Positions 12,244 to 19,613 of a stretch of 20,826 bases of DNA are shown here, piece by piece. Both the position numbers and the translations under genes were made by a program. Source of the stretch: a virus. The DNA lies in IMG/VR virus record IMGVR_UViG_3300025853_000830, positions 1 through 20,826 of that record; one strand, written 5' to 3'. How positions within the stretch are numbered: position 1 is the first letter of the stretch; every line of letters begins with the position of its first letter. Under the pieces are notes generated by a model. That model saw nothing but the letters and a program-made list of their open reading frames with translations, ran no database searches and had not been told where the DNA came from.

Positions 12244-12828
12244 TTAAATTTCTTTATACATCAGGTCTTCTGCGCGGACCCGATAGTATTCTTTCTCTTC
12301 AATTGTAATCCTGTAGTCCATGTTCTTTCGAAACCCAACTACGTCTCCTACTTCGAGCCCTAGCTCTTCCACCCAAGGCGGAGTAAAAGAGACCTTCCCT
12401 TTCGTGACAGGGCTGTCCTTGAGTTTAACAACGTCGATAATATCAGACTGTTTCTCTTCTCTTTCTTCCACTCGTTCGAGAAGTGACCAGCCCGCCAACG
12501 GATGTACGTCCCCAGTCTTTGCAGACTTGTAAGCAATAGCCTGGTTGTTAACGGTGTGATCAGGATCGAAGCGTACAAGATAGTGATCATCCTCACCAGT
12601 AAGAGGCTGACCATCGTTAATAACAACGAGATGGTGGAAGTACAAAGTGTCACCCACTTCGACTCCAGTATCGTACTTAAACGGGACCGCCACGACGGGC
12701 GCTTCTGTGGTTCTGTTTTGGAATTCATTGAATCTGTTGTCTATGTAGAGCTCTAAGCCGCCCTCGGTTTTCATGGTGTCGTTTATCCGTTTGTTGATCT
12801 CAACAACGAACAAGTCAAACGTTTTCAT
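12244..12828 (-). CDS. GroES-like co-chaperonin with two tandem domains, 194 aa
   Basis: Two GroES-like segments lie in tandem. Residues 5-105 contain FDLFVVEINKRI, a variable loop region, APVVAVPF, then VEVGDTLYFHHLVV. Residues 114-192 contain WSLLERVEE, KGKVSFTP, LGLEVGDVVGFRKNMDYRIT and EYYRVRAEDLMY, which follows the GroES order (strand, GxV, VGDxVxF, xxI, EYxxVxxxDL). GroES is about 97 residues, so 194 fits a duplication. Phage GroES analogues such as T4 gp31 fit the host GroEL to fold the capsid protein. A gene in the virion operon fits that role. The mobile loop that contacts GroEL cannot be placed with confidence. Family assignment is by pattern, not by search. Confidence 0.68.
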   Translation of the reverse strand: MKTFDLFVVEINKRINDTMKTEGGLELYIDNRFNEFQNRTTEAPVVAVPFKYDTGVEVGDTLYFHHLVVINDGQPLTGEDDHYLVRFDPDHTVNNQAIAYKSAKTGDVHPLAGWSLLERVEEREEKQSDIIDVVKLKDSPVTKGKVSFTPPWVEELGLEVGDVVGFRKNMDYRITIEEKEYYRVRAEDLMYKEI

Positions 12829-17788: not shown

Positions 17789-17818
17789 TTTTTGCGCCTT
17801 CACAGCTTCATATGTTTG
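17789..17818 (+). promoter_or_regulatory. Possible promoter for the hairpin-rich rightward transcript
   Basis: TATGTTTG (17811-17818) is an exact TAnnTTTG box. TTTTTG at 17789-17794 is the only -33 candidate, and at 16-18 bases it is closer than the usual 19-20. A start near 17825 would put the whole region 17825-18521 into the leader of the Lys-rich gene. Confidence 0.4.
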
Positions 17819-17823
17819 ATTGA

Positions 17824-17880
17824 CGCTTCGTAGTGTCGTTTTGTGCGTACATACGCACTCTCCCTAGATCGCTTCGTAGT
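17824..17880. repeat. 11-bp direct repeat CGCTTCGTAGT and hairpin
   Basis: CGCTTCGTAGT occurs at 17824-17834 and again at 17870-17880. Between the copies lies a perfect hairpin, GTGCGTA-CA-TACGCAC (17843-17858). The arrangement repeat-hairpin-repeat begins right where the rightward transcript would start. Confidence 0.7.
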
Positions 17881-17910
17881 AAAAACAGCTTCGAAGTTTC
17901 ATCGCTAACA

Positions 17911-18036
17911 ATGCTTGGCGAAGTTACAGCTTTTTTTTTGGAAAGTCAAGTATTCAAAACCGCTTTAAGTAGCACCCCCAAAGCATTGATCAACAGCATC
18001 TTAAAACGTTTAGGTGAGCAAACCGTGGAAAACTGA
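17911..18036 (+). CDS. Doubtful small ORF, 41 aa
   Basis: ATG 17911 opens 41 codons ending at TGA 18036: MLGEVTAFFLESQVF, then TALSSTPKALINSILKRLGE. The product would be amphipathic and helical. The frame contains a run of nine T bases, and the surrounding region is rich in small repeats and hairpins. It extends upstream with GTG at 17833, but without better coding character. It could be chance in a region that is otherwise non-coding; I list it only because nothing else explains these 126 bases. Confidence 0.22.
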   Translation: MLGEVTAFFLESQVFKTALSSTPKALINSILKRLGEQTVEN

Positions 18037-18200
18037 TATCGACAGCGAACCTTAGAAAATGGTGCGTAATACAGATCGTGGGGATTATATGTATCATGAG
18101 TCAGTTGGGGCTACGCCCCAAAACAGAATCCCTAAACCCCGTGGGTATAATGCACTGGGGGTTTTGCTTAGACTTTCAGCTAATAACCCTCAGCTAAGTA

Positions 18201-18388
18201 GCTGAGTGTTAAACAGTTAAAGCTGATTGGTTGGAGTTGATTGACAGTAAGCGTAGCTTAAACCGCTCAGAATCAGCTTGGGACAATCCCCCTTCTAAAC
18301 CTATGGTTTAGCATATAACCTTCATTTATGAAGGTTCACTGATGCCTTCAACCAAACTCTCCAAACGCGCTGAGTGTTAACAAGTTAA
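18201..18388. repeat. Duplicated GCTGAGTGTTAA element
   Basis: GCTGAGTGTTAA occurs at 18201-18212 and 18369-18380. It is followed by ACAGTTAA in the first copy and CAAGTTAA in the second. In both copies the 5' part takes part in a hairpin, so the repeat may be a duplicated structural module. Confidence 0.7.
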
Positions 18389-18456
18389 CACCATATGTTT
18401 GGCTACCAATCGCAGGAGTATCAACCAAAGTTGATACCGCAGGAATTGGAGAAAGT

Positions 18457-18514
18457 AGATATAGATTAAAGAAAGAATGGAATTCTATGAATTCTTTCTT
18501 TAATCTTAATATCT
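18457..18514. repeat. Long inverted repeat just before the start of the Lys-rich gene
   Basis: A perfect 16-bp stem pairs 18463-18478 with 18491-18506 around a 12-base loop. It is extended by six more pairs (18457-18462 with 18509-18514) across a two-base bulge. It ends seven bases before ATG 18522, so in RNA it would sit against the initiation region. One arm is A/G-rich and the other T/C-rich. Confidence 0.93.
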
Positions 18515-18521
18515 AACAGTT

Positions 18522-19247
18522 ATGGCAAAAACCATTTCCCACTCTGAGCTGCTGAAAGCAGCAAAAAAGGCTGTAAACAGCCTGATGTTCAACCCAACAC
18601 CTTCGAAGAAGGTGGAGGCAATCAAGGCTTTAGCCTTGGTTTGTGAATTTGTCGCCGAAGTCGATGCTCCGAAGGAGGAGCCGAAGCCGAAGGCTTCGAA
18701 GTCAAAGAAGAAGCCGAAGGCTTCTAAGGCGAAGCCGAAGGCTTCGAAGTCGAAGTCGAAGTCCAGCCGTAAGGCTGAGATTGAGGCTGTTCTTACCTCT
18801 GGTAAGAAGCTGAAGAGGTCAGAACGTTCCGTTCTGAACAAGGAGCTTCACGCTCTCCTCCAAGAGGAGAGAGCAGCTGCTCGTTCTTCGAAGAAGAACA
18901 AGAAAACTGTTCGACGACCTAAGAGGTCGTCAGCGGCTGGTCTTGAACAAGACCAAGCAAAGCAGAACACTGCCAACAAAGTTGGCAAAATCAAGAAAAC
19001 CAAAGTCGTCAACGCAGTTGACGGTGGAGCGGCTCAACCTTTCGAGCAGCGAGTGGAGGTGCCCGTGATCGAGCCGAAGGCTCGGAAGAAGCAGCAAATG
19101 AAAGTTACTCTCCTTCCAGGAGAGTCACCTGAGGAAGCAATGGCTCGACTCCGCTCCGCTCGCTTGGAGCAAGAGCGCTTGGAGGCAGAGGCGCTGATTT
19201 CCTCTGGAAATCCGATGTTGGAGCCATCTTTCGCTCCCGCAGTGTAA
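18522..19247 (+). CDS. Lys/Ala/Ser-rich histone H1-like protein encoded in a hairpin-dense sequence, 241 aa
   Basis: Residues 1-48 look folded and helical (ELLKAAKKAVNSLMF, KVEAIKALALVCEFVAE). Residues 52-82 are Lys/Pro/Ala/Ser repeats (KPKASKSKKK, KPKASKAKPKASKSKSKSS), as in histone H1-like tails. Residues 84-120 form a charged helix (AEIEAVLTSGKKLKRSERSV), and the rest is basic with a final helix (ESPEEAMARLRSARLEQERL). It probably binds DNA or RNA; I recognise no named family. The gene is unusual at the DNA level: about 22 short hairpins lie within 726 bases, roughly one every 30, most with arms of 6-8 bp and loops of 2-4 bases. It may have evolved under a constraint unrelated to the protein. 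A long stem directly precedes the ATG. Confidence 0.8.
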   Translation: MAKTISHSELLKAAKKAVNSLMFNPTPSKKVEAIKALALVCEFVAEVDAPKEEPKPKASKSKKKPKASKAKPKASKSKSKSSRKAEIEAVLTSGKKLKRSERSVLNKELHALLQEERAAARSSKKNKKTVRRPKRSSAAGLEQDQAKQNTANKVGKIKKTKVVNAVDGGAAQPFEQRVEVPVIEPKARKKQQMKVTLLPGESPEEAMARLRSARLEQERLEAEALISSGNPMLEPSFAPAV

Positions 19248-19284
19248 AACGAAGTTTTAGTTAAACCCTATAAATCAAAGATTT

Positions 19285-19572
19285 ATGAATCAACCAATTT
19301 TTGCTTTTGTCTTCACCTTCGGTGAAGAGCGTGGAGAGTTTCGCTGCAAGCGGAACTTCGTGGACGAGGAGGCGGCCTGCGAGTGGGCGGCCTCGATGAT
19401 GGTGCAGGACGAGGTCTGCTATGTGTGTGAGTGCGAGAGCGCGGACTACGTGTTCGAGCCAGCGTGTGAATCGCACACTGCCGTAAGCTGGAGTGCGGAC
19501 GGGCTGACGTGGCAGATGCTCGAAGTAGTCGATGATTTCGATGAAGAAATGGAACTCTACCCTAAAGGGTAA
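19285..19572 (+). CDS. Hypothetical acidic Cys-containing protein, 95 aa
   Basis: The 95-residue protein starts MNQPIFAFVFTFGEERGEFR and is strongly acidic, with cysteines in DEVCYVCECESADYVFEPAC (about residues 43-62) that could bind metal. It ends LEVVDDFDEEMELYPKG. The beta-strand pattern and the CxxCxC spacing suggest a small folded domain; I do not recognise it. Its ATG lies inside the hairpin ATAAATC-AAA-GATTTAT (19270-19286), and the TAA stop overlaps another (TACCCT-AA-AGGGTA, 19558-19571). No promoter is seen in the 37-base gap before it, so it is probably co-transcribed with the Lys-rich gene. Confidence 0.72.
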   Translation: MNQPIFAFVFTFGEERGEFRCKRNFVDEEAACEWAASMMVQDEVCYVCECESADYVFEPACESHTAVSWSADGLTWQMLEVVDDFDEEMELYPKG

Positions 19573-19581
19573 AAAAATAAA

Positions 19582-19613
19582 TTTGGATTTAGGGATTCTT
19601 TGCCCTATCTTTG
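19582..19613 (+). promoter_or_regulatory. Consensus Bacteroidetes promoter for the small-gene cassette
   Basis: TTTG (19582-19585) and TATCTTTG (19606-19613) are separated by 20 bases and match the -33/-7 consensus completely. Transcription should start near 19620, about 30 bases before ATG 19651. It shares sequence with the promoter at 14696-14727, which suggests a common phage promoter class. Confidence 0.8.

Follow-up and report, generated by a model that had tools for sequence, protein, structure and literature searches.

An array of perfect hairpins, possibly DNA hairpins, spans a putative origin and the adjoining gene in Bacteroidota-type podoviruses

A dense array of perfectly paired hairpins occupies the divergent intergenic space (17819-18521) that separates the two gene arms of a Bacteroidota-type podovirus contig. 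In our favored explanation, which we are about equally prepared to accept and to doubt, these are DNA hairpins, located in a putative origin/promoter region, with pairing that selection holds perfect and sequences that template switching rewrites. The contig is a linear virus record of 20,826 nt, referred to here in its entirety as the window, with structural genes (terminase, portal, and endolysin) on the minus strand to the left and plus-strand genes to the right. As we envision it, about 26 short DNA hairpins with perfect Watson-Crick pairing and, in most cases, loops of 3-4 nt would stand in tandem over ~1.3 kb, adjoining a conserved divergent promoter/putative origin site and continuing through the downstream Lys-rich gene. 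The hairpins would form as the DNA becomes single-stranded or supercoiled in the course of replication, selection would keep their pairing perfect, and polymerase template switching between the arms would yield two-sided changes and flipped loops. The conserved core beside them would be a replication origin or main regulatory site, and a long hairpin before the gene may have assumed a role of that gene's lost sigma-A promoter. This explanation is built upon the observed density and localization of the hairpins, their covariation, the near absence of G.U pairs, strand symmetry, and loop inversion. Only tentatively, and with a minority share of our confidence, would we extend it to the full claim that selection maintains an array of interchangeable DNA hairpins with flipping loops across both putative origin and gene, that the long hairpin substitutes for the sigma-A promoter, and that the coding sequence (CDS) is constrained by hairpins and protein alike.

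A first-pass annotation of this DNA had described about 700 stem-rich non-coding bases, and this description is borne out. The plus strand of 17819-18521 has a minimum free energy (MFE) of -214.6 and a z-score of -9.25 against 20 dinucleotide shuffles (minus strand, -4.74, 20 shuffles), and it contains 8 perfect hairpins, counted for the region as a stem of at least 6 pairs with a loop of 3-8 nt, compared to 1.04 in shuffles (maximum 5). A hairpin at 17843-17858 (GTGCGT-ACAT-ACGCAC; hairpins and conserved blocks are given without strand) covaries in homologues as helix 2. The non-coding part of the array (18105-18437) is apparent from the hairpin scan, covariation, and loop flips and has members at 18105-18121, 18189-18206, 18295-18311, 18317-18336, 18374-18391, and 18418-18437. 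Nested stems had been claimed around 18374-18391, and there the inner part is exact, while the outer arms CCAAAC/GTTTGG covary by eye in alignment A1 (CTAACC/GGTTAG and CCAACC/GGTTGG). The 22-pair stem reported before the start codon is equally real. This long hairpin (18457-18514) consists of a perfect 16-bp main stem (18463-18478/18491-18506), an extension (18457-18462/18509-18514), and a 12-nt apical region containing GAATTC-TAT-GAATTC, and it ends 7 nt 5' of the ATG at 18522. With the downstream 241-aa protein as query, 18 loci were retrieved whose upstream regions are alignable with the window. Among 14 homologous sequences, 91.5% of the cells in nine helices were paired, and 65 two-sided changes were found in these helices compared to 21.5 in shuffles and 0-10 in slid controls; helices in the middle part of the MAFFT alignment A1 were left out of this count because the alignment is unreliable there. 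Thus, the homologues vary with compensation, rather than without it as the first-pass annotation had envisaged for a mistaken candidate.

The same annotation overlooked the continuation of the hairpins beyond the start codon; that the array runs through the CDS is one of several results that do not support a discrete large non-coding RNA. The plus-strand gene at 18522-19247, which encodes the 241-aa Lys/Ser/Ala-rich protein, holds 18 perfect hairpins from 18548 to 19212, compared to 1.85 (maximum 6) in 500 shuffles keeping protein and codon usage, and codon shuffles yielded MFE z-scores of -7.3 and -6.8 for its two strands. Hairpin density peaks in this gene at 24.8/kb, compared to 1.7/kb in the left arm, and the last two array hairpins (19270-19286 and 19310-19328, together 19270-19328) occupy the spacer and the beginning of the ORF that follows. 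Close homologues keep 16-18 of the 18 CDS hairpin positions, 9-13 of them with changed sequence, and the relative L045 shares 9 positions at 64% protein identity, compared to 2.4 expected. The protein itself has no Pfam or PHROG match; its predicted structure (pLDDT 69, pTM 0.25) comprises helices and disordered Lys-rich linkers and holds no functional hint. In composition, it is histone-like.

The alternative that survives best is a structured mRNA leader in the lineages that have the long hairpin, which we judge unlikely, though worthy of serious consideration. The leader would be 0.4-0.7 kb in length and transcribed from an unrecognized promoter further left, the long hairpin would control translation from its position 7 nt before the AUG or serve as an RNase III cleavage site, and the CDS hairpins would tune mRNA stability. 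It is favored by the covarying stems, nested ones included, and by the distribution of promoters. A full-match sigma-A promoter stands shortly before the gene in seven of the nine genomes without a long hairpin, whereas none of the 20 genomes with one has such a promoter before the gene (Fisher p 2e-5, uncorrected for kinship); as all 20 lack a sigma-A promoter between the long hairpin and the gene, transcription must enter from elsewhere. However, no good promoter was found upstream. The TAnnTTTG box that the first-pass annotation saw at the left edge does exist (TATGTTTG, 17811-17818, plus strand), but it is a weak promoter candidate with a TTTG spacer of 16 nt. Strong promoters of these phages have spacers of 18 nt after TTGAC and 20-21 nt after TTTG, which leaves the spacer of TATGTTTG about 4 nt too short for the TTTG type, and several lineages carry TTAGTTTG or other variants in its place. 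The window's only full match to a rightward sigma-A promoter (TTTG-N20-TATCTTTG, 19582-19613, plus strand) is located downstream of the array. A leftward Bacteroidota sigma-A promoter (TTGAC-N18-TAACTTCG, 17918-17949, minus strand) that serves the minus-strand structural arm accounts for the strongly conserved left part of the presumed RNA. Most of ~45 genomes carry this promoter in the form TTGAC-N18-TAnCTTyG; its -7 box is separated from the core, to the left, by about 143 nt (range about 126-206).

Base-pair type and strand symmetry also argue against a leader. We counted 104 distinct perfect 6-bp hairpins upstream of the gene and 85 in the CDS, compared to 5.5 and 9.9 expected, while 6-bp stems with one internal G.U numbered 12 (10.6 expected) and 13 (14.9 expected), respectively. 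G.U pairs are nearly absent from the non-coding stems. Among 7-bp stems, those with G.U are modestly over-represented in the CDS (11 vs 4.7 expected), which gives some indication of RNA-level tolerance and is the main one found; it favors the leader and counts against DNA hairpins. The same kind of scan found 8 perfect (5.4 expected) and 22 G.U stems (12.0 expected) in E. coli 16S+23S rRNA, the opposite balance to that of the window, where there were 54 (2.2 expected) and 3 (3.2 expected). Across 24 genomes, the mean z difference between the strands was -0.01, with 12 of the 24 favoring the plus strand. The window alone folds somewhat better as the plus strand, which is a point against DNA hairpins, but in light of the symmetry across the family this asymmetry is not a family property. 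Eight of nine core-bearing genomes without a long hairpin have a near-zero plus-strand z (+1.6 to -1.3). The exception, L016, lacks the long hairpin yet has non-coding hairpins, and these sit to the left of a sigma-A promoter, an arrangement ill suited to a leader.

Hairpins with identical arms and reverse-complement loops were found in different phages, amounting to 12 pairs with 4-nt loops (0.68 expected) and 4 pairs with 3-nt loops (0.33 expected); the sequences are related, so the flip events are fewer than the flip pairs. On the arm CCTTCA, for example, the loops TTTA/TAAA, TTCA/TGAA, TCAA/TTGA, and GTTC/GAAC all occur, the CTTG/CAAG flip is present on several kinds of arms, and the window and L008 differ by one flip (TGTTAA-CAAG/CTTG). 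Stem and loop changes were counted by pairwise comparison. In the fifteen closest pairs, stem changes are almost exclusively two-sided Watson-Crick replacements, and neither G.U nor A.C intermediates occur. Taken together, the pairs above 82% identity, which share ancestry and thus do not provide independent counts, yielded 52 two-sided, 10 G.U, 12 A.C, and 23 other changes along with 18 flips, at change rates of 0.062 in stems, 0.198 in loops, and 0.106 outside. Arm homogenization and spacer inversion have been described as outcomes of template switching by polymerases (PMC8604942, PMC8794818), and the array exhibits both perfect arms without wobble intermediates and loop inversion above chance. 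It could be supposed that the hairpins are a purely mutational footprint, made and kept perfect by template switching without any selected function. Such a footprint would explain the flips, the homogeneity of the arms without G.U, and the occurrence of hairpins in coding and non-coding DNA alike, but we consider it improbable. If stems mutated at the outside rate, one-sided changes in them would outnumber the 18 flips, yet few such changes are seen, and from this we infer that perfect pairing is under selection as well. The hairpin positions retained by L045 and the complete absence of the array from some lineages are further arguments against a footprint, the latter being a difficulty for selected DNA hairpins as well.

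Published template-switch studies describe scattered and rare events, with 10 spacer inversions in yeast genes and 69 inversions confined to the loop in a large collection of rRNAs (PMC8604942, PMC8794818). The array is similar to such inverted repeats in its homogenized arms, instantaneous two-sided changes, inverted 3-5 nt spacers, and effect upon coding sequence, but it differs in its density of ~26 hairpins in 1.3 kb, its many flips, and its seemingly selected pairing. Minute inversions are also known from chloroplast spacers such as trnH-psbA, in which loops between perfect inverted repeats flip recurrently (PMC2903610); those are single hairpins in plant organelle spacers, whereas here an array extends through a phage gene.

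A new giant ornate non-coding RNA is a much poorer candidate, and we would be surprised to find it correct. GOLLD and ROOL, to which the first-pass annotation had likened the region, are Rfam families that often occur near tRNA islands and form RNA cages (PMC12286853). The phage setting, the length of about 700 nt, the number of stems, the plus-strand z-score, and the covariation all recall them. However, an Rfam scan of the window at gathering score produced no match, nor did a scan of six loci, including the window region, down to E = 1; GOLLD, ROOL, and OLE are among the families without a match. There is no tRNA island near the region, the one tRNA-Arg in the window being 6.4 kb away. Furthermore, the array extends into the CDS, the fold is not strand-specific, and most core-bearing relatives without the long hairpin show no fold. 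What persists of the proposed large structured RNA is a hairpin-rich region with compensatory changes; a discrete large non-coding RNA is not supported.

Virion-polymerase promoters of phage N4 are small stems with 3-nt loops adjoining the gene start. A similar promoter for a virion-borne RNA polymerase, formed by the apical stem and 3-nt loop of the long hairpin, is the least credible reading of all: by eye, most window-type long hairpins do have an apical 5-6 bp stem with a purine-centered TAT/TGT loop, and the mutual exclusion of long hairpin and sigma-A promoter would suit it, but there are far more hairpins here than in N4 and most lie inside the CDS, no such polymerase was found in a PF00940 search of 11 long genomes (in which the positive control was silent too), and the giant 2.6-3.9 kaa proteins carry no convincing T7-type RNAP motif set and have no solved relative, one matching LPD38 only. 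These proteins (2600-3860 aa) are encoded at the far end of the structural arm in G004, G033, G036, and G008 as well as in MW202828 (741-12320), and the LPD38 (polyvalent-protein domain) match of the G004 copy is accompanied by matches to three giant PHROGs of unknown function.

The conserved core next to the hairpins (18053-18181) aligns nearly without gaps over 130 nt and contains the 25-bp motif ATACAGATCGTGGGGATTATATGTA (18069-18093), followed downstream by the blocks CCnAAAC, ACCCC, and TTTCAGCT at near-constant spacing. An additional block, GGGACAATCCCCC (18280-18292), lies about 210 nt right of the core start and is present in most relatives. The core motif matched 55 stretches in viral contigs representing 46 distinct sites, two of which (L048 and L053) look like chance. 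Among 41 whole records scanned, 38 had exactly one match each, and this single occurrence led us to reject the core as a repeated phage promoter. RNAalifold analysis of the core from 18 diverse genomes returned only GGGG/CCCC and no stacked covarying columns. Core-bearing sites have a minus-strand gene on the left and, if the contig extends that far, usually the Lys-rich gene or another basic one on the right. In five near-complete genomes, the core is located at the divergence point of the arms, and the array, at 10-17 hairpins per kb compared to about 1 elsewhere, lies to the right of the core only, a one-sidedness that counts against the DNA-hairpin explanation; the array is absent in G036 and G041.

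The cumulative GC skew reaches its minimum at the core in the window and in three of the five near-complete genomes (G008, G033, and G041); in G036 the minimum is a few kb right of the core, and G004 ends there. A unique site with a GC-skew minimum and an AT-rich stretch (GGGGATTATATATA) is reminiscent of DnaA-type origins; these signs are suggestive rather than proof, since a GC-skew minimum follows the switch of gene strand anyway. Within the 130 nt that flank the core on its left, DnaA-like boxes reach 6.4/kb across relatives, compared to 0.65/kb elsewhere, although many relatives lack them and the window has only degenerate versions, with no box counted there; the core is not a known origin. 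A DnaA-domain-IV-like protein is found in one relative, where the sub-threshold HTH match (L088:2251-2619) adjoins exonuclease and primase/helicase (DnaB-type) genes. All of this is suggestive of the core being a replication origin or main regulatory site. It should be noted that about 22 of 38 core contigs end 30-620 nt right of the core and none just left of it. A genome terminus at the core is disfavored: the ends are scattered and the site is internal in other contigs, which makes assembly breaks likelier, and these probably occurred at hairpins or repeats.

If our favored explanation of selected, template-switched DNA hairpins is true, then the covariation among homologues that is commonly taken to prove a structured RNA can have another source. 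The near absence of G.U, strand symmetry, and loop inversions would be simple tests to separate DNA hairpins from RNA and would be useful for any covariation-based screen for new structured RNAs. These phages would also constitute a natural system with frequent template switching, as well as an example of a promoter apparently replaced by a hairpin and of a protein under constraint from hairpins.

By terminase, the nearest named relatives of the window are an uncultured podovirus together with Flavobacterium and Cellulophaga phages. DNA searches of a phage collection with the region and that of a distant relative as queries detected no homologue, none of the GTDB contigs searched matched the core motif, and MW202828, the nearest named phage by terminase, has neither core nor array. 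MW202828 encodes GroEL and a chaperonin-10 subunit, and the window encodes a protein with a Cpn10 (GroES-like) domain on its minus strand (12244-12828). In the array-less relatives L058 (10095-10650), L065, and L079, long CA/TG-rich and GCGGATG-type repeats replace the hairpins.
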